Notes under the pieces: model-generated
The model's input: only the letters and a program-made list of their open reading frames with translations
What the model was told of the DNA's origin: nothing
The model's database searches: none
In this document: positions 5,333 to 14,616 of the stretch, one piece after another
How positions within the stretch are numbered: position 1 is the first letter of the stretch
How the letters are laid out: each line of letters begins with the position of its first letter
Translations under genes and position numbers: made by a program
NCBI RefSeq assembly: GCF_016462705.1
Contig: NZ_JAEMSS010000003.1
Span: 1-54,718, forward strand
Direction: 5' to 3'
From: Nocardioides sp.
GTDB taxonomy: Bacteria > Actinomycetota > Actinomycetes > Propionibacteriales > Nocardioidaceae
Length of the DNA stretch: 54,718 nt

Positions 5333-6043
5333 GTGAGCGAACCGAGATCCATCCTGGTCACCGGCGGCAACCGGGGCATCGGGCGCGCGATCGCCGAGGC
5401 GTTCGTCGAGCTCGGCGACAAGGTCGCCGTGACGACCCGCAACGGCGGAGCGCCCGACGGCACCCTCGACGTGCGCTGCGACATCACCGACCCGGACGCG
5501 GTCGAGGCGGCGTTCGCCCAGGTCGAGGAGGCGCACGGACCGGTCGAGGTCCTGGTCGCCAACGCCGGGATCACCAAGGACACGCTGCTGCTGCGGATGT
5601 CCGAGGACGACTGGGCCTCGGTCATCGACACCAACCTCACCGGCTCCTACCGGCTCGCCAAGCGCGCCTCGAAGGGGATGCTCCGGCTCAAGCGCGGCCG
5701 CATCGTCTTCGTCTCCTCGGTCGTCGGGCTGCTGGGCTCGGCCGGCCAGGTCAACTACGCCGCGTCGAAGTCCGGCCTGGTGGGGATGGCGCGCTCGATC
5801 GCCCGCGAGCTGGGGTCCCGCTCGATCACGGCCAACGTGGTGGCTCCCGGGTTCGTCGAGACCGACATGACGGGCGTGCTCACGGACGACCAGAAGGCAG
5901 CGATCAAGACACAGGTGCCGCTCGGGCGGTACGCCGCCCCGGAGGAGGTCGCCGCCGCGGTGACCTGGCTGGCCGGCGACGGCGCGGCGTACGTGACCGG
6001 GGCCGTGATCCCGGTCGACGGCGGACTCGGAATGGGGCACTGA
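5333..6043 (+). CDS. fabG: 3-oxoacyl-ACP reductase FabG (MabA-like)
   Basis: This 236-residue classical SDR has the NADPH-binding motif TGGNRGIGRA at the N-terminus, the NAG motif (VANAGIT) and the catalytic Ser (SSVVG) with YAASK as Tyr/Lys. It should reduce 3-oxoacyl-ACP in each round of fatty acid elongation. Three bases separate it from the enoyl-ACP reductase gene. This is the same order as mabA-inhA in mycobacteria, which supports the fatty-acid role over other SDR functions. The GTG start is favoured by the TAGCGT box 7 bases upstream and by the lack of a good Shine-Dalgarno sequence. Confidence 0.93.
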   Translation: MSEPRSILVTGGNRGIGRAIAEAFVELGDKVAVTTRNGGAPDGTLDVRCDITDPDAVEAAFAQVEEAHGPVEVLVANAGITKDTLLLRMSEDDWASVIDTNLTGSYRLAKRASKGMLRLKRGRIVFVSSVVGLLGSAGQVNYAASKSGLVGMARSIARELGSRSITANVVAPGFVETDMTGVLTDDQKAAIKTQVPLGRYAAPEEVAAAVTWLAGDGAAYVTGAVIPVDGGLGMGH

Positions 6044-6046
6044 CCG

Positions 6047-6829
6047 ATGACCAGCTCAACAGGCATCCTCGAAGGCAAGCGCATCCTGGTCGCGGGCGTG
6101 ACCATGGACAGCTCGATCGGCTTCGCGGCCGCGAAGTACGCCCAGGAGCAGGGCGCCACCGTCCTGATCTCCAACTTCGGCCGCGCGCTGGGCATCACCC
6201 GGCGGATCGCGAAGCGGCTCCCGACCGAGCCGCCGGTGCTGGAGCTGGACGTCACCGACGACGACCACCTGGCCGGTCTCGCCGACCAGGTCCGCGAGCA
6301 CGTCGACGGGTTGGACGGCGTGGTCCACTCGATCGCGTTCGGCAACCCCGAGACGCTGCTCGGCGGCAAGTTCCTCACCGGCCCGTGGCCCGACGTCGCG
6401 CAGGCCGTCCAGGTGTCGGCGTACTCGCTGAAGTCGCTGACCGAGGCCTGCCGGCCACTGATGTCGAGTGGCGGCTCGGTGGTCGGCCTGACCTTCGACG
6501 CCACCGTCGCGTGGCCGGCGTACGACTGGATGGGCGTGGCCAAGGCCGCACTCGAGTCCACGTCGCGCTACCTCGCCCGCGACCTCGGTCCCGAGGGCAT
6601 CCGGGTCAACCTGGTCTCCGCGGGACCGCTCAAGACGCTCGCCGCCAAGGCGATCCCGGGGTTCGAGGACCTGGAGACGATGTGGAGCGGCCGCGCCCCG
6701 CTCGGCTGGGACAACACCGACCAGGAGCCGACCGCCAAGGCGGTCTGCGCGCTGCTCTCGGACCTCTTCCCGGCGACGACCGGCGAGATCGTGCACGTCG
6801 ACGGCGGCCTGCACGCGATGGGGGCCTGA
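6047..6829 (+). CDS. fabI: Enoyl-ACP reductase, InhA/FabI type
   Basis: This 260-residue divergent SDR carries the InhA signature: VTMDSSIGF in the NADH site, VHSIAFGNPE, and a Phe/Tyr/Lys catalytic set in TFDATVAWPAYDWMGVAK (Tyr-x6-Lys spacing). It performs the last reduction of each elongation cycle, from trans-2-enoyl-ACP to acyl-ACP with NADH. It follows fabG by three bases and is surely co-transcribed with it. In mycobacteria the orthologue is the target of isoniazid and ethionamide adducts. The length is close to InhA (269), and nothing looks damaged. Confidence 0.95.
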   Translation: MTSSTGILEGKRILVAGVTMDSSIGFAAAKYAQEQGATVLISNFGRALGITRRIAKRLPTEPPVLELDVTDDDHLAGLADQVREHVDGLDGVVHSIAFGNPETLLGGKFLTGPWPDVAQAVQVSAYSLKSLTEACRPLMSSGGSVVGLTFDATVAWPAYDWMGVAKAALESTSRYLARDLGPEGIRVNLVSAGPLKTLAAKAIPGFEDLETMWSGRAPLGWDNTDQEPTAKAVCALLSDLFPATTGEIVHVDGGLHAMGA

Positions 6830-6880: not shown

Positions 6881-8611
6881 GTGACCTCGGAGCCGCAGTC
6901 CCTCGTCGAGCTGCGGGTCCTCGAGGGTCCGAACCTCTACTTCCCGCGGGCCGCGATCAAGCTGACGCTGGACATCAGCGGGCTGGCGTCGGCGTCGGAC
7001 GAGAAGGCCCAGCGGTTCGCCACCCGGATCGGTCTCCGGAACGCCCGCCCGGGGCCTCCCGACTCCGGCTTCCGACAGCGGTTCGCGCTCCGGGCCGTGG
7101 GCCGGCTCGTCCGCGCGATCGCGACGGAGGCCGGCACGTCGAAGCTCGGTGTCCGGGTGCGACCGACCAGCGACCCGCACCGGATCGTGGTGGCCTACCC
7201 GTGGGCACACCGCGAGCGGGCCCAGGTCATGGGCCGCGCCGTGGCTGAGGTGCTGGACGCCTTGCCACGCGGCGACGTGGAGGAGACCGTCGGCCACGCC
7301 GCGAGGGCCGTGCGCGAGTCCGAGCCCGGGGCGCGCCCGCACACCATCACCCCGAGGATCCCCGTGGTCGCGGTCACCGGCACCAACGGCAAGACCACCA
7401 CCTCGCGGATGATCGCGCACATCGCGCGGACCGACGGTCGACTGGTCGGGTGGTCCAACACCGACGGCATCTATGTCGACGGCGAGCTGGTCGAGGCCGG
7501 CGACTACTCGGGGCCGAGCGGCGCCGGCAGGGTGCTGGCGCACCCCGAGGTCGAGCTCGCGGTCACCGAGACCGCCCGCGGCGGCATCCTGCTGAAGGGG
7601 ATCGGGCTGGTCCGCAACGACGTCTCGGTCGTCACGAACGTCAGCGCCGACCACCTCGGCCAACAAGGCATCGACACCCTCGACCAGCTGGCCGAGGTCA
7701 AGGCGGTCGTCCCGCGGATCACCCGCAAGGGCGGCTGGGCCGTCCTCAACGGCGACGACCCGCGGGTGCTGGCCATGCGCAGCACGACCGCGGCCCAGCC
7801 GTGGGTGTTCTCGCGCGACCCGTCGTCCCCCGCCATCCGCGAGGTGCTGGACGCCGGCGGACGGGCCACGACCATCATCGACGGCTGGGTGGCCGTGCTC
7901 CAGCGCGACGCCGACCCGGACCCGCTGGTGGAGCTCGTCGACGTACCGATGACCCTGGCCGGGCTGTCCCACTTCAACGTCGAGAACACGCTGGCGGCCG
8001 CCTCGGCGGCGCTGGCGGCGGGGATCCCACGCCGGTCCGTCGTCGAGGGACTGCGCACCTTCCTGCCCGACGCCGAGCACAACCCCGGCCGGATGAACTT
8101 CTTCTCGGTCCCCGTCACCGCGGGCGAGATCAGCGTCGTCATGGACCTGGCCCACAACGAGGCCGGCCTCGAGGCACTGCTCGAGATCATGAACGGCGTC
8201 CGCCGGCCCGGCTGCCGGCTGCTGCTCGGCATCGGTGTGGTCGGGGACCGCACCGACGACCTGATCGAGATGATCGGGGAGATCGCGGCCCGCGACGCCG
8301 ACGTGATCGCGATCGGGCACAAGGAGCGCTACCTGCGTGGCCGGACCGTCGAGGAGCTCGACACGCTGATGCGGGCCGGGGCCGAGCGGGTGGGGGTCAC
8401 CGGCGTCCCGGCATACGCGACCGAGGTCGACTGTCTCTCGGCCCTGGTGGGCCAGGCGCTCCCCGGCGACGTCGTCGGCCTGATGTGCCATGCCGAGCGC
8501 CAGGAGGCCTACGACTGGATCGCCGAGCACGGCGGTACGCCGGACAGCCCGGAGACCCTCGCCGACAAGGTCCGAGCCGCCCAGCGAGTCGGCGTTACTG
8601 ACGGACAGTAG
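6881..8611 (+). CDS. CphA paralogue with N and Mur-ligase domains but no ATP-grasp domain
   Basis: The protein has 576 residues. Residues 1-160 resemble the N domain of the CphA encoded opposite (ELRVLEGPNLYFPRAAIKL against ETRVYRGANIWSYDKAIHL). Residues from about 163 on form a Mur ligase with an intact P-loop, TGTNGKTTTSRM, then ETARGGILLKG and SADHLGQQGIDT, closely matching CphA. The roughly 300-residue ATP-grasp domain that separates these in CphA is absent, with no remnant seen. In CphA the Mur domain adds arginine to aspartate side chains and ATP-grasp extends the aspartate backbone, so this protein could only do a Mur-type ligation. The product is unknown: side-chain amidation of cyanophycin or a related peptide is inference. 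It is tail-to-tail with cphA, 16 bases apart. Confidence 0.85.
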   Translation: MTSEPQSLVELRVLEGPNLYFPRAAIKLTLDISGLASASDEKAQRFATRIGLRNARPGPPDSGFRQRFALRAVGRLVRAIATEAGTSKLGVRVRPTSDPHRIVVAYPWAHRERAQVMGRAVAEVLDALPRGDVEETVGHAARAVRESEPGARPHTITPRIPVVAVTGTNGKTTTSRMIAHIARTDGRLVGWSNTDGIYVDGELVEAGDYSGPSGAGRVLAHPEVELAVTETARGGILLKGIGLVRNDVSVVTNVSADHLGQQGIDTLDQLAEVKAVVPRITRKGGWAVLNGDDPRVLAMRSTTAAQPWVFSRDPSSPAIREVLDAGGRATTIIDGWVAVLQRDADPDPLVELVDVPMTLAGLSHFNVENTLAAASAALAAGIPRRSVVEGLRTFLPDAEHNPGRMNFFSVPVTAGEISVVMDLAHNEAGLEALLEIMNGVRRPGCRLLLGIGVVGDRTDDLIEMIGEIAARDADVIAIGHKERYLRGRTVEELDTLMRAGAERVGVTGVPAYATEVDCLSALVGQALPGDVVGLMCHAERQEAYDWIAEHGGTPDSPETLADKVRAAQRVGVTDGQ

Positions 8612-8627
8612 GGCCGACTCGGCGGCG

Positions 8628-11405
8628 TCAGGCGTCGGTGGGGGTGGCCGGCTGGTAGTCCGGGTCGGCGGCGGGTGCGTCGGAGCTCACGCCGGCACCG
8701 GCCTGGGCCTGGGGTGACCAGTTCTCGAGCTCGGTCATCACCTCGGCGTGCATGTCCACGCAGATCACGACGAGGTCACCCTTGTTGGCGCGGGCCATGG
8801 CGTGCCGGACCGCGACGATCTCCTCGTGGCACTCCTCGACCTGCTTGCAGCGGGCGCCCTCGCTCATGGCGGCACGCACGCCCTCGGCGACCAGGCCGGC
8901 GACGTCGCCACGCTCGCGGCCGCGCAGGGCGACGTCCTCGCGGACGATGACCACGTCGAAGTGCTGGGCGGCGATGTGGCCGAGCTCGCGCATGTCCTCG
9001 TCACGACGGTCCCCGGCGGTGGCGATGACCCCGATCCGGGAGGGCCGGGCCAGCTCGTGGGCGGACTCCAGCGAGTCGCCGACCCGGTCCACGAAGTCGC
9101 CGAGCATCCGCATCCCGGGGGCGTTGTGGCAGTAGTCGACGATCACGTTGACGCCGTTGACCTCGACCTCGTTGAGCCGGCCGGGGGAGAGGTAGTAGTT
9201 GGTCGAGAAGGAGCGCAGGCCCTGGCGGATGTCGTGCAGCGGCGCGCCGATGGCGAACGCCGCGGCGGCGGCGCCGAGGGCGTTCTGGACGTTCATCCGG
9301 GCCCGGCCGCCGAACGTCGCGGGCAGCAGGTGGGTCCAGGCGAGCTGCATCTCGCGGGGGCCGTGCTTGACCACGATCATCTCGCCGCGCTCGGACGGGT
9401 TGAGGACCAGCGCCTTGCCGCCACGACGGCAGTGGGCGTCGATCATGTCCCGGATCTCCGAGCCCGGCTCCTCCATCGAGAACCAGACGACCTGCCCCGA
9501 GCAGCGGCGCCGCATCTCGCGGACGAGCGGGTCGTCGGCGTTGAGCACGGCGTGGCCGTCGCGGGGGACGGCCTCCACCAGGACCGCCTTGACGTCGGCG
9601 AGCTGCTCGACGGTGTCGATGCCCCGCAGGCCGAGGTGGTCGGGCTGGACGTTGAGGACGACGGCGACGTCGTTCCGTTCGTAGCCGAGCCCCTCGCGCA
9701 GGATGCCGCCGCGGGCGACCTCGAACACCGCCGTGTCGACCCGGGGGTTCTGGAGGACCATCCGCGCCGACCTCGGTCCGGACGCGTCGGCCCGGATGAC
9801 CAGCCGCTCGTCGATCACGACGCCGTCGGTGGAGGTCATGCCGACCTTGCGGCCCATGCCCTTGAAGATGTGGCTGATCATCCGCGAGGTCGTGGTCTTG
9901 CCGTTGGTACCGGTCACCGCGACGATCGGGATCCTGGACTTCGCCCCCGGCGGGAACAGCATGTCGACGACCGGCTTGGCGATGAACTGCGGCTCGCCGA
10001 TCGTCGGGTGGGTGTGCATCCGGAAGCCCGGGGCCGCGTTGACCTCGCAGATCGCCCCGCCGGTCTCCCGCACCGGCTCGGTGATGTCGGGGCAGATGAA
10101 GTCGATCCCCGCGATGTCGAGACCGACCATCCGGGCCGCCTCCTCGGCGATCTCCACGTTCTCCGGGTGCGCCTCGTAGGTGCGGTCGATGGAGATGCCG
10201 CCGGTGGACATGTTGCCGGTGAGCGCGAGCTTCACCATCTGACCCTCGGGCGGGACGTCGGTCATCTCGAAGCCCTGCTCGCGCACCCGGGCGACAGCGG
10301 CGTCGTCGACCTTGATCCGGGTCAGGACCTTCTCGTGGCCGACGCCGCGCCGCGGGTCGGCGTTGGCGGTGTCGACGAGCTGCTCGACGGTGGACGTGCC
10401 GTCGCCCGTCACGGACGCCGGCACCCGCTCGGCGATGGCGGCCACCCGGCCGTCGATGATCAGGCAGCGGTAGTCCTTGCCGAGGATCAGGGACTCGACG
10501 ACGATCACGCCCCGCCGGGACTCGGCCTTCGCGATCTCGAACGCCTCGCGGACCTCGGCCTCGCTCGTCAGGTCGAGGCAGACGCCGCGGCCGTGGTTGC
10601 CGTCCAGTGGCTTGAGGACGACCGGGTAGCCGATCCGCTCGGCCACCCGCACCGCCTGGTCGGCCGTGCGCACCGACTCCTGCTTCGGGACCGGCAGGCC
10701 GGCGGCACCGAGCAGCCGGGTGGTCAGGTCCTTGTCCGAGGCGATGTCGACGGCGATCGCGGACGTCGCCGAGGTCATGGTCGCCCGGATCCGCTTGGCG
10801 TGGACCCCTTGTCCGAGCTGGACCAGGGAGTACTGGTTGAGGCGGATCCACGGGATGTCCCGGGACACGGCCTCGTCGAGGATGGCCTGGGTCGACGGAC
10901 CGAACGCCGTGCGCTCGGCGCGCAGGATGAACTCGTCGCGCTCGGTCTCCCAGTCCAGCTCCGGGTCCGGCTGCACGAGGTGGTTGACCAGGCGGACGGC
11001 CAGCTTCGCCGCCGCCAGACCGACCTGCTCGTCGACGTAGCCGAAGATCACGTTGTAGTGACCCGGCTCGCCCTTCACCGCGCGGGTCTTGCCGCGCCGG
11101 ATGTCGTGCCCGACCACCTGCTGCAGCGCCAGGGCCGCGTGCTCGGCGACGTGGCCGAGCCAGGTGCCCTCGTGCAGCCGCTCGACGAACCCGCCCCGCT
11201 TGCCGCGCGAGCAGGAGTGCTCGCGGAGACCGGGCAGCATCTCCAGGATGTTGTCGGTGAACCCGGGGATCGTGTTGGTGGGGAACCTCTCCAGCGACCC
11301 GAGGTCGACCACCAGGTGGATGGCCTTGTCATAGGACCAGATGTTGGCTCCGCGGTAGACGCGGGTCTCGAGGATCGCCAGGTCAGGGGTCGGTCGTTCT
11401 GTCAT
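8628..11405 (-). CDS. cphA: Cyanophycin synthetase CphA
   Basis: This 925-residue, ATP-dependent enzyme builds cyanophycin, a polyaspartate backbone with arginine on each side chain that stores nitrogen. Residues 1-160 are the N domain. Residues about 205-480 are the ATP-grasp domain (YPVVLKPLDGNHGRGV, ICEVNAAPGFRMHTHP). From about 490 comes the Mur-ligase domain with P-loop TGTNGKTTTSRM and the substrate region VARGGILREG and QPDHLGLRGIDT. Both active halves look intact, and the length is usual for CphA1. Its ATG overlaps the cphB stop by 4 bases (ATGA), so it is translated from the cphB transcript. The tail is Ala/Pro-rich and probably disordered. Confidence 0.96.
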   Translation of the reverse strand: MTERPTPDLAILETRVYRGANIWSYDKAIHLVVDLGSLERFPTNTIPGFTDNILEMLPGLREHSCSRGKRGGFVERLHEGTWLGHVAEHAALALQQVVGHDIRRGKTRAVKGEPGHYNVIFGYVDEQVGLAAAKLAVRLVNHLVQPDPELDWETERDEFILRAERTAFGPSTQAILDEAVSRDIPWIRLNQYSLVQLGQGVHAKRIRATMTSATSAIAVDIASDKDLTTRLLGAAGLPVPKQESVRTADQAVRVAERIGYPVVLKPLDGNHGRGVCLDLTSEAEVREAFEIAKAESRRGVIVVESLILGKDYRCLIIDGRVAAIAERVPASVTGDGTSTVEQLVDTANADPRRGVGHEKVLTRIKVDDAAVARVREQGFEMTDVPPEGQMVKLALTGNMSTGGISIDRTYEAHPENVEIAEEAARMVGLDIAGIDFICPDITEPVRETGGAICEVNAAPGFRMHTHPTIGEPQFIAKPVVDMLFPPGAKSRIPIVAVTGTNGKTTTSRMISHIFKGMGRKVGMTSTDGVVIDERLVIRADASGPRSARMVLQNPRVDTAVFEVARGGILREGLGYERNDVAVVLNVQPDHLGLRGIDTVEQLADVKAVLVEAVPRDGHAVLNADDPLVREMRRRCSGQVVWFSMEEPGSEIRDMIDAHCRRGGKALVLNPSERGEMIVVKHGPREMQLAWTHLLPATFGGRARMNVQNALGAAAAAFAIGAPLHDIRQGLRSFSTNYYLSPGRLNEVEVNGVNVIVDYCHNAPGMRMLGDFVDRVGDSLESAHELARPSRIGVIATAGDRRDEDMRELGHIAAQHFDVVIVREDVALRGRERGDVAGLVAEGVRAAMSEGARCKQVEECHEEIVAVRHAMARANKGDLVVICVDMHAEVMTELENWSPQAQAGAGVSSDAPAADPDYQPATPTDA

Positions 11406-12391
11406 GGGGTGTTCTTCTCCTGGTCGGCGCGGATCGTCCGTCGAGCACCCCGGGACCGCCGCAGCCGGCGGCGCAGCGAGGTGGGGGAGGCGTCGGCCGC
11501 GGCGATGTCGCGGGCCATCTGGCGCAGGTCCTGGCCGGCCTCCGCCATCTCCAGCTCCTCGAGCGGGTCGACCACCTGCACGGTCGGGAGCAGGGTGCGC
11601 GTGGTGAGGTCGAACCGGGCTCCGTCGGGCAGCACGTGCAGGATGACCCCGCTGGCGAGGATCGGCGCCGAGCGCTTCGCCTCGTAGGCGTTGGTGACCA
11701 GGTTGGCCGGGTCCATGACCGTGACCGACCCGCGCCCGACCACCCGCATGATCTCGTGCGGACCGTCCAGCTCCTCGTGCGTCTCCACGATCGCGGCGGT
11801 GTCCTCGTCGACGCCGAGCCCGAGCAGCGACGGGGACTGGGAGACGATCATCAACAGCCGACCGTAGCGGTTGCGCTGGTCGAAGTGCTGGTCGATCACG
11901 GTGGACTGGAGCAGCCCCAGCCCGGCCGCGACCTGGGTCATCCGCTGCTTGGGGGTGGCCCCGCCGACCCCGAACGCGACCATGTGGCTGGACTGGATGC
12001 TGGCGCCGGCCGAGGTCCCCGCGACGGCGACGCCGCGCTCGTGGGCGGCCACGATCGCGGCGCCGACGGGCGTACCGCAGATGATCGCGCTCAGCTTGAG
12101 CTGGTTGCCGCCGGTCATGAAGATCCCGGACGCCTCGCCGATCCGCTTGGCCAGCTCCTCGTCGCAGGCCTCCTCGCGGCTGTGCGGCCGGACCACGGTG
12201 ACCTCGGCCGCCCCCTCGGCCCGGAACAGCGCGTCGTACACGTCGACGATCTCCTGCCCCAGCGAGGACGCGGTCGGGATCACCACAATGCGGGCGTCCA
12301 GTCCCCCCGCCGCGGAGACGAACTCCCGGAGGATCCGGCGCTTGCGAAGCTTGTCCTCGGCCCCTCCGATGATCATGAGCGGACCAGACAT
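11402..12391 (-). CDS. cphB: Cyanophycinase CphB
   Basis: This 329-residue peptidase-family-S51 hydrolase cleaves cyanophycin to beta-Asp-Arg dipeptides. The nucleophile serine lies in GTSAGAS, preceded by the conserved IFMTGGNQLKL segment, and QHFDQRNRYGRL follows later. There is no signal peptide, so it should act on internal granules. The ORF track begins 24 bases earlier, but the ATG at 12391 (MSGPLMIIGGAEDK) fits the family and lies 7 bases after TAGGCT. It is first in the cphB-cphA operon, which links making and breaking of the store to one promoter. It is divergent from a SixA-like phosphatase. Confidence 0.95.
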   Translation of the reverse strand: MSGPLMIIGGAEDKLRKRRILREFVSAAGGLDARIVVIPTASSLGQEIVDVYDALFRAEGAAEVTVVRPHSREEACDEELAKRIGEASGIFMTGGNQLKLSAIICGTPVGAAIVAAHERGVAVAGTSAGASIQSSHMVAFGVGGATPKQRMTQVAAGLGLLQSTVIDQHFDQRNRYGRLLMIVSQSPSLLGLGVDEDTAAIVETHEELDGPHEIMRVVGRGSVTVMDPANLVTNAYEAKRSAPILASGVILHVLPDGARFDLTTRTLLPTVQVVDPLEELEMAEAGQDLRQMARDIAAADASPTSLRRRLRRSRGARRTIRADQEKNTP

Positions 12392-12962: not shown

Positions 12963-14192
12963 TCACACGGGGGGCGCGGGGGTCACCACGCCGGCCTCGA
13001 GGTCGGCCGCCTCGATCTCCTCGCGGCTGATGCCGAGCAGGTACATGATCGCGTCGAGGTAGGGCACGTTGACCGACGTGTCGGCGGCGTCGCGGACCAG
13101 GGGCTTGGCGTTGTAGGCGATGCCCAGACCGGCGGCGTTGAGCATGTCGAGGTCGTTGGCGCCGTCGCCGATGGCGATCGTGGCCGCCTCGGTGAGGCCG
13201 AGCTCGGCGGCGAACTCGCGCAGTGCTCGGGCCTTGCCGGCCCGGTCGACCACCTCGCCGACGATGTTGCCGGTGAGCTTGCCGTCGACGACCTCGAGCT
13301 CGTTGGCCCGGGAGAAGTGGATCCCGAGGTCCTCGGCCAGCCGGTCGGTGATCTGGGTGAACCCGCCCGAGACGAGCGCGAACCGGTAGCCGAGCCGCCG
13401 CAGCACCCGGACCAGGGTGCGCGCTCCCGGAGCCAGGACGATGGCGTCGTACACCTCGTCGAAGGCTGAGACGTCGACGCCCTCGAGCAGCTTGACCCGC
13501 GATCTGAGCGACTCCTCGAAGTCCAGCTCTCCGCGCATCGCCGCCTCGGTCACCTCGGCGACCTCGTTGCCGTAGCCGGCGTGCTCGGCCAGCATCTCGA
13601 TGACCTCGCCCTGGATCAGCGTCGAGTCGACGTCCATGACGATCAGCCGCATGCTGCGCCGGAGCAGGTTGGCCGGCTGGACGGCGATGTCGACGCCCTG
13701 GGTCGCCGCCTCCGTGGCGAGGATGCCGCGGAGCGCCTCCGGGTCCACGCCGGAGACGTGCAGGTCGATGGCCGTGACCGGGTAGCGCGCCATCCGGACG
13801 ATGCGGTCGATGTTGGCGCCGCAGTCGGCGATCCGGCCGACGATGGCGGCCATCGCCGACGCCTTGAGCGGGGTCCCGATGACCGTCACGTGCGAGCGGC
13901 CACCCCGCCTGGCCCGGTTGTCGCCGCTGCCCCGCTCGACCTCGACGGCCATCCCGAGCTCGGCGGCGGTCTGCTCGACGGCGGCACGCAGCTTCTTCCA
14001 GTCCCGCGGTGCGGTCACCAGCACGCCGAGGACCAGGCGGCGGCGCAGGACGATCTGCTCGATGTCGAGGACCTCGACGCCGGCGCGCGCCAGCGTCGCG
14101 AAGATCGCCGAGCTGACCCCGGGACGGTCCTTGCCGGTCAGGGTGAGCAGCAGCGTGTCGGGCCGCCGCTCCCCGTGCATGTCACCGTCCAT
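12963..14192 (-). CDS. serB: Phosphoserine phosphatase SerB with ACT domains (SerB2 type)
   Basis: This 409-residue protein is the same length as mycobacterial SerB2. Residues 1-170 hold two ACT-type regions (LLTLTGKDRPGVSSAIFATL, then VTVIGTPLKASAMAAI), which bind serine or other amino acids. The HAD phosphatase domain follows, with motif MDVDSTLI near residue 185, LVSGGFT, and GDGANDLDML near the end. It makes serine from phosphoserine in the cytoplasm. The ORF-track start is 216 bases upstream. The ATG at 14192 is preferred because TAGCCT lies 7 bases before it; an ATG at 14180 (MHGERRP) is the alternative. Confidence 0.94.
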   Translation of the reverse strand: MDGDMHGERRPDTLLLTLTGKDRPGVSSAIFATLARAGVEVLDIEQIVLRRRLVLGVLVTAPRDWKKLRAAVEQTAAELGMAVEVERGSGDNRARRGGRSHVTVIGTPLKASAMAAIVGRIADCGANIDRIVRMARYPVTAIDLHVSGVDPEALRGILATEAATQGVDIAVQPANLLRRSMRLIVMDVDSTLIQGEVIEMLAEHAGYGNEVAEVTEAAMRGELDFEESLRSRVKLLEGVDVSAFDEVYDAIVLAPGARTLVRVLRRLGYRFALVSGGFTQITDRLAEDLGIHFSRANELEVVDGKLTGNIVGEVVDRAGKARALREFAAELGLTEAATIAIGDGANDLDMLNAAGLGIAYNAKPLVRDAADTSVNVPYLDAIMYLLGISREEIEAADLEAGVVTPAPPV

Positions 14193-14199
14193 CGTTGCG

Positions 14200-14205
14200 A
14201 GGCTA
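14200..14205 (-). promoter_or_regulatory. Putative -10 box TAGCCT of serB
   Basis: Minus-strand TAGCCT, 7 bases before the ATG at 14192; it also decides between the possible serB starts. Confidence 0.5.
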
Positions 14206-14250
14206 TCGGTGGCCGAGGTGATGTCGGCGGTTCGGTCCATGCTGGGTGTC

Positions 14251-14616
14251 ATGAGCAGCGGTACCGCGGGATCTGCCCTGGTGTTCTTCGGTGCGTGCAT
14301 CGCCGCGCACGACTGGTCCGGTCTGCGGGCGCTGCTCGCCGATGACGCCGCCGTCGAGCTGGTCCACACGGGTGAGCGGTTCGACGCGGACGCGTTCGTC
14401 GCCCTCAACCGCGACTATCCCGGCGACTGGGTGTTCCACGTCGACGAGGTCGTCGACGGTGGCGCCAGGGCCGTGGTGAGGGCGCGGACCGTCGTGGGTG
14501 ACGAGACCTTCCACGTCGCGACCTTCGGGTCCCTGGATCCGCAGGGACTGCTCACCCGGCTCGTGGAGGTCTGGACCGAGGCCGTCGCACCACACCCGCA
14601 GCGCGGACCAGCCTGA
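14251..14616 (+). CDS. Small SnoaL/NTF2-like protein
   Basis: The product has about 121 residues and an NTF2-like pattern: an N-terminal helix (VFFGACIAAHDWSGLRALLADDAAVEL), a mid-region with DADAFVALNRDYPGDW, and paired strands ending in LTRLVEVWTE. Such proteins form a cone-shaped fold used as enzyme or binding domain; no function can be assigned. An upstream in-frame ATG at 14239 is possible. The ATG at 14251 was chosen because a weak CATGCT box lies 7 bases before it. It is divergent from serB and convergent with the next gene, 13 bases apart. Confidence 0.65.
   Translation: MSSGTAGSALVFFGACIAAHDWSGLRALLADDAAVELVHTGERFDADAFVALNRDYPGDWVFHVDEVVDGGARAVVRARTVVGDETFHVATFGSLDPQGLLTRLVEVWTEAVAPHPQRGPA

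Follow-up and report, generated by a model that had tools for sequence, protein, structure and literature searches.

A 54,718 nt stretch of a Nocardioides sp. genome (the window) encodes, beside a complete pair of genes for cyanophycin synthetase and cyanophycinase, a CphA paralogue that carries an N domain and a Mur ligase (M) domain and lacks the ATP-grasp domain. We consider it slightly more probable than otherwise, judging from its sequence, that this protein (termed Mur-only) is an active, dedicated ATP-dependent ligase for a non-arginine amino acid, which it would attach to a carboxylate derived from cyanophycin. The fuller proposal, that Mur-only is an undescribed ligase co-inherited with its own CphA lineage in Actinomycetota and Alphaproteobacteria and modifies cyanophycin or β-Asp-Arg with an amino acid that is not arginine, is put forward tentatively.

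Cyanophycin metabolism is described as requiring a short set of enzymes, namely the synthetase, cyanophycinase and isoaspartyl dipeptidase. A further gene that is nearly inseparable from the synthetase across an order, and common to another phylum, implies that a reaction is missing from this set. No description of the Mur-only family was found in the searchable literature, beyond whose reach many subscription papers lie.

A CphA paralogue without an ATP-grasp domain

The Mur-only gene (positions 6,881-8,611, forward strand, GTG start) encodes a protein of 576 aa. Both Mur domains exceed their Pfam cut-offs (Mur_ligase_M, 66.8 bits against 24, E 3e-18; Mur_ligase_C, 34.2 bits against 28.4, E 5e-8), which places the protein in the Mur ligase superfamily; they are the only domains that Pfam recognises in it. 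No ATP-grasp family matched in Pfam when reporting was opened to E 10. Scores for the CphA1 model TIGR02068 (379.6 bits, cut-off 850) and the MurE model TIGR01085 (83.1 bits, cut-off 257.3) both lie below threshold. The combination recorded in the initial annotation, an intact Mur P-loop (TGTNGKTTTSRM) in a CphA-like protein with no ATP-grasp domain, is thus borne out by the sequence and by Pfam.

The protein shares 39% identity over 428 aa with the M domain of the adjoining CphA, and the solved structures closest to it by sequence comparison are without exception cyanophycin synthetases, with every MurE far behind. An AlphaFold2 model built from a 27-sequence alignment (mean pLDDT 84.5) found full-length CphA1 (7lg5) as its best Foldseek match, with a TMq of 0.80 across the N and M domains, whereas MurE structures gave TM-scores of about 0.5. 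Because the alignment spans the whole 871-residue CphA1 target, it passes over the ATP-grasp (G) domain, and the modelled architecture is that of CphA minus its G domain.

The N-terminal region (residues 1-155, positions 6,881-7,345, forward strand) is not matched by PF18921, the Pfam model of the CphA N domain, and a profile test was therefore needed. Comparison of these 155 residues with a CphA N-domain profile by hhalign gave a probability of 93.9% (E 1.5e-7, 129 columns), while ten column-shuffled profiles gave at most 0.4%. By this measure, and by the fold match to CphA1, the region reads as a CphA-type N domain, as had been supposed, albeit a diverged one. It lacks Cx19HxxEH, the primer-making metallopeptidase motif of the CphA N domain (PMC9262961). 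This motif, found in about 80% of CphA1 proteins, occurs in 0 of 112 Mur-only proteins and in 77 of 77 actinobacterial CphAs; in the CphAs of Shinella and Ruegeria it carries a two-residue insertion. As the partner CphA has the motif and the Mur-only N domain does not, a role of the latter in making primers was rejected. Members from Ornithinimicrobium and relatives (L088, L113, L114 and L115) all bear a C-terminal extension that brings them to 722-742 aa; Pfam detects TPR repeats in that of L088, and the other three extensions look similar.

The adjoining genes lie on the reverse strand. A full cyanophycin synthetase of 925 aa is encoded by cphA (8,628-11,405; TIGR02068, 1160.8 bits against 850), with an N-domain Cx19HxxEH motif (C65, H85, E88, H89; 11,139-11,213). 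A cyanophycinase of 329 aa (or 337 aa from 12,415) is encoded by cphB (11,402-12,391; TIGR02069, 243.9 bits against 126.6), and the two genes overlap by 4 bases at the cphA start, so that the complete cphB-cphA pair noted earlier is confirmed. Every Asp-recognition residue checked is kept in the partner CphA, which should therefore make ordinary cyanophycin unaided. The idea that this CphA uses an unusual substrate found no support, given its standard Asp-site residues.

The Mur-only gene and cphA converge across a gap of 16 bases (8,612-8,627). Orientation is convergent in 67 of 67 loci in which both genes could be read whole, and gaps there range from 0 to 3,878 bases; the orientation is thus a conserved feature and the 16-base gap is not. 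In one genome (G680) the two genes lie on different large contigs. Directly upstream of the Mur-only gene and on the same strand are two SDR-family genes (5,333-6,829, forward strand), named by inspection as fabG-like (5,333-6,043) and enoyl-ACP-reductase-like (6,047-6,829). Such a pair recurs in this position across several families, and the Mur-only gene may be read together with it. Comparison of neighbour clusters found no substrate-pointing neighbour conserved across families besides cphA and cphB. A GabT-like aminotransferase and an MFS transporter, again named by inspection, lie upstream in most of four loci from one actinobacterial family (L159, L160, L162 and L164), and a membrane protein in another family, likewise named, is local to its lineage. 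Beyond cphB, an ORF on the reverse strand (12,963-14,408) resembles by inspection the phosphoserine phosphatase SerB with ACT domains.

Co-inheritance with CphA and origin of the family

Both genes are present in 25 of the genomes of 59 relatives, and in none of the 59 does one occur alone. An even sample of 397 genomes from across the phylum yielded 12 with a match, all 12 of which carry both. A search from the CphA side through 397 genomes of the order Propionibacteriales returned 133 matches, six of them weak (1e-36 to 1e-44) and not CphA. The Mur-only gene was found in 126 of the 127 CphA-bearing genomes of this order (103 of 104 retested with P0001, plus 23 already positive in the survey of relatives). 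The sole exception, G474, is a draft of 350 contigs in which the cphA contig stops about 2 kb past cphA. No surveyed genome has the Mur-only gene without CphA. The initial annotation had suggested a specialised partner of CphA, to be given up if pairing proved not to be conserved; with pairing seen in 126 of 127 genomes, the suggestion stands. Six CphA-negative genomes of Propionibacteriaceae type (G040, G555, G557, G615, G642 and G671) each show one weak CphA match in the above range. In Nocardioides sp. B-3 (L079) the Mur-only frame is disrupted and the CphA of the same locus is shortened to about 800 residues, perhaps through joint decay or sequencing error.

Phyla outside Actinomycetota were surveyed through plasmid records. 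Shinella and two Ruegeria carry the gene order cphB-cphA-Mur, and Roseateles sp. XES5 has a near-identical Mur-only gene. Together, the Shinella, the two Ruegeria and the one near-copy make up a small alphaproteobacterial sample. None of the cphA-iaaA-cphB plasmid clusters of Rhizobium, Sphingobium, Pelagibacterium, Mesorhizobium and two Deinococcus contains the Mur-only gene, and none of the Mur-only-bearing plasmid clusters of Shinella and the two Ruegeria contains iaaA. Given that the gene also occurs in Alphaproteobacteria and accompanies CphA in 126 of 127 genomes, it looks less like a chance duplicate than like a dedicated cyanophycin-metabolism ligase that has so far escaped notice.

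When M domains were placed in a maximum-likelihood tree, the Mur-only proteins of Actinomycetota and Alphaproteobacteria grouped in a single clade (bootstrap 97) that falls outside all sampled CphAs, those of the same genomes included. The CphAs that have a Mur-only partner likewise form one clade (bootstrap 100) when full-length CphA sequences are compared in a tree, and the pair thus behaves as one inherited unit. These sequence relationships argue firmly for a single ancient origin of the family. Ratios of dN/dS for five Mur-only pairs, about 0.23-0.35, indicate purifying selection. The tail-to-tail layout had been read initially as a sign of local duplication or of a functional unit, and the former reading does not survive, since the M-domain tree places Mur-only outside all CphA.

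Catalytic core and substrate-side residues

The P-loop TGTNGKTTT (residues 166-174, positions 7,376-7,402, forward strand) is invariant in the family. In the cyanophycin synthetase TeCphA1, residues K499, T500, T522, E558, R731 and H748 hold ATP and Mg2+ (PMC9427784). The first four correspond to K171/T172, T194 and E230 of Mur-only, and the last two to R404 and H425. D257-H258 and K274 are also kept, and this whole set is invariant among 20 sequences from two phyla. To judge from these residues, the ATP/Mg site of the M domain is intact.

Positions on the substrate side are changed. The CphA loop D-x-[ST]-G-P-x-S is replaced by D-[YWF]-S-G-x-x-G in every Mur-only protein, here as GDYSGPSG (residues 207-214, positions 7,499-7,522, forward strand), and the signature D[YWF]SG occurs in 112 of 112 Mur-only proteins against 0 of 89 CphAs. 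Conversely, GDRR is present in 89 of 89 CphAs and in 0 of 112 Mur-only proteins; the protein of the window has GDRT (residues 455-458, positions 8,243-8,254, forward strand). The lid residues R801, D804 and D824 of CphA, which lie where MurE takes hold of its incoming amino acid and are conserved at 100, 100 and 94%, are mostly T/S, L/I and K/L in Mur-only, whereas Y484 is found in 26 of 26 Mur-only proteins and R540 in 92%.

The lid motif of the window's protein is HKERYLRGR (residues 480-488, positions 8,318-8,344, forward strand), which aligns with DDNPR of MurE and keeps R486 and R488. The CphA lid R-E-D-x(3)-RGR becomes YLRGR or YFRGR, one residue longer, in both phyla (94 and 7 of 109 Mur-only proteins, respectively; the regular expression did not catch the other eight). 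A DNPR motif or equivalent is absent from the Mur-only protein, which has YLRGR at that position. In MurE, DNPR marks where the amino acid to be added is bound. By analogy, the equivalent position in CphA would hold arginine, with the site placed from MurE and not from an arginine-bound CphA structure. Since both the lid site and the substrate-side loop differ from those of CphA, we infer that the amino acid coming in is a different one, and the acceptor may differ too. An acidic partner might suit the conserved R540, but this is only a guess. Attachment of arginine or lysine, which the initial annotation had offered as a candidate activity, is disfavoured by the loss of CphA's acidic and Arg lid residues.

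Possible functions in cyanophycin metabolism

Like other Mur ligases, Mur-only would use ATP and Mg2+ to phosphorylate a carboxylate, to which the incoming amino acid would then be coupled through its amino group. The amino acid, other than arginine, would be joined to an Asp carboxylate of cyanophycin or of its β-Asp-Arg breakdown product. We infer both the action of the protein as a ligase in vivo and the relation of its substrate to cyanophycin.

Mur-only might instead repeat the job of the CphA M domain, adding arginine or lysine onto unmodified Asp of cyanophycin or polyaspartate and so repairing or completing side chains. The 39% identity to that domain, the intact catalytic residues and the retained R486 and R488 of the lid all fit, but R801, D804 and D824 of CphA are gone and the lid loop is longer in both phyla, and the partner CphA has an intact M domain of its own; we regard this as unlikely. 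A non-catalytic or weakly catalytic accessory subunit, which would bind cyanophycin or CphA through its N-M module and regulate polymerisation or granules, would account for the retained N domain of polymer-binding type, the CphA-like orientation and the strict dependence on CphA. Invariance of the entire ATP-, Mg- and phosphate-handling set across two phyla argues for catalysis, however, and makes such a subunit very improbable. The view of Mur-only as a local duplicate of cphA, redundant or in decay, hardly comes into consideration. Mur-only does adjoin cphA in convergent orientation, 16 bases away, and CphA copies have separately lost the ATP-grasp domain in Legionella and degenerated in Deinococcus, but the Mur-only clade stands apart from all CphA, it shows no decay, its dN/dS is about 0.23-0.35, and the gene accompanies nearly every cphA in the order.

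Another alternative is that Mur-only acts on the β-Asp-Arg released by cyanophycinase, replacing or bypassing an isoaspartyl dipeptidase that is missing, for instance through tagging or a conversion that depends on ATP. Among 38 near-complete genomes with CphA and Mur-only, Asparaginase_2 (IaaA) was missing from 36 and IadA from all 38 at E 1e-40; likewise, neither an Asparaginase_2 protein nor an IadA scoring above cut-off was seen in the genome of the window, which is 88% complete. The plasmids agree in that clusters with iaaA lack a Mur-only gene of the same clade and those with Mur-only lack iaaA. PF04952, the one test applied for CphZ-type hydrolases and their only coverage here, was absent too. 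Against this, IadA and/or IaaA were reported in all 35 CphA1-bearing Actinomycetota genomes (PMC10206079), a clash that perhaps reflects looser BLAST criteria in that survey, and IaaA is missing from CphA-negative relatives as well; presence and absence are confounded with phylogeny. The alternative is accordingly quite unlikely, and the suggestion that dipeptide handling differs in Mur-only-bearing genomes is a lead and not proof.

If the fuller proposal of a co-inherited non-arginine ligase is true, the polymer, or what becomes of its dipeptides, would differ from the textbook Asp-Arg cycle in bacteria that bear Mur-only. The protein would be a Mur ligase whose specificity is new and could serve in the production of altered cyanophycins. 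It also bears on β-Asp-Arg disposal in Actinomycetota, because family searches of these genomes find almost no known dipeptidase.

Comparison with known proteins sets Mur-only apart from each of them. It shares with CphA1 (TIGR02068) the N-domain fold, the Mur M domain and all ATP-site residues, but it lacks ATP-grasp and Cx19HxxEH, and its GDRR and R-E-D lid motifs are replaced. With MurE it has in common the Mur middle and C-terminal domains, the P-loop and the lid Arg and His; its N domain, however, is CphA-type, DNPR is absent, TMq is about 0.5 and scores fall far below the MurE cut-offs. CphA2, the cyanobacterial β-Asp-Arg polymerase, is like Mur-only a CphA1 relative with a single active site, yet it keeps the ATP-grasp site and has lost the M-domain P-loop and lid (Mlid) (PMC9427784), the reverse of Mur-only, in which P-loop and lid are present and ATP-grasp is absent. 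The initial description of Mur-only as a mirror image of CphA2 therefore holds for architecture and goes no further, CphA2 being cyanobacterial and Mur-only forming an ancient clade in which the substrate-side residues are distinct.

Proteins of Legionella adelaidensis and Deinococcus annotated as 'Mur ligase family protein' are also CphA relatives in which ATP-grasp is missing (Legionella, D. deserti) or degraded (D. taeanensis, KNUC1210). They differ from Mur-only in that their M domains nest inside CphA and GDRR is kept, and the loss or degradation of ATP-grasp in these copies thus had separate origins. The L. adelaidensis plasmid protein (L112:5332-7200) has a PF18921 N domain, Cx19HxxEH and an M domain with no ATP-grasp match; cyanophycinase and IaaA are encoded alongside, and no cphA on the stretch seen. 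The Deinococcus plasmid paralogues with degraded or missing ATP-grasp lie at L110:4705-7204, L136:5702-8218 and L109:5026-7200, and that of KNUC1210 is split into two ORFs.
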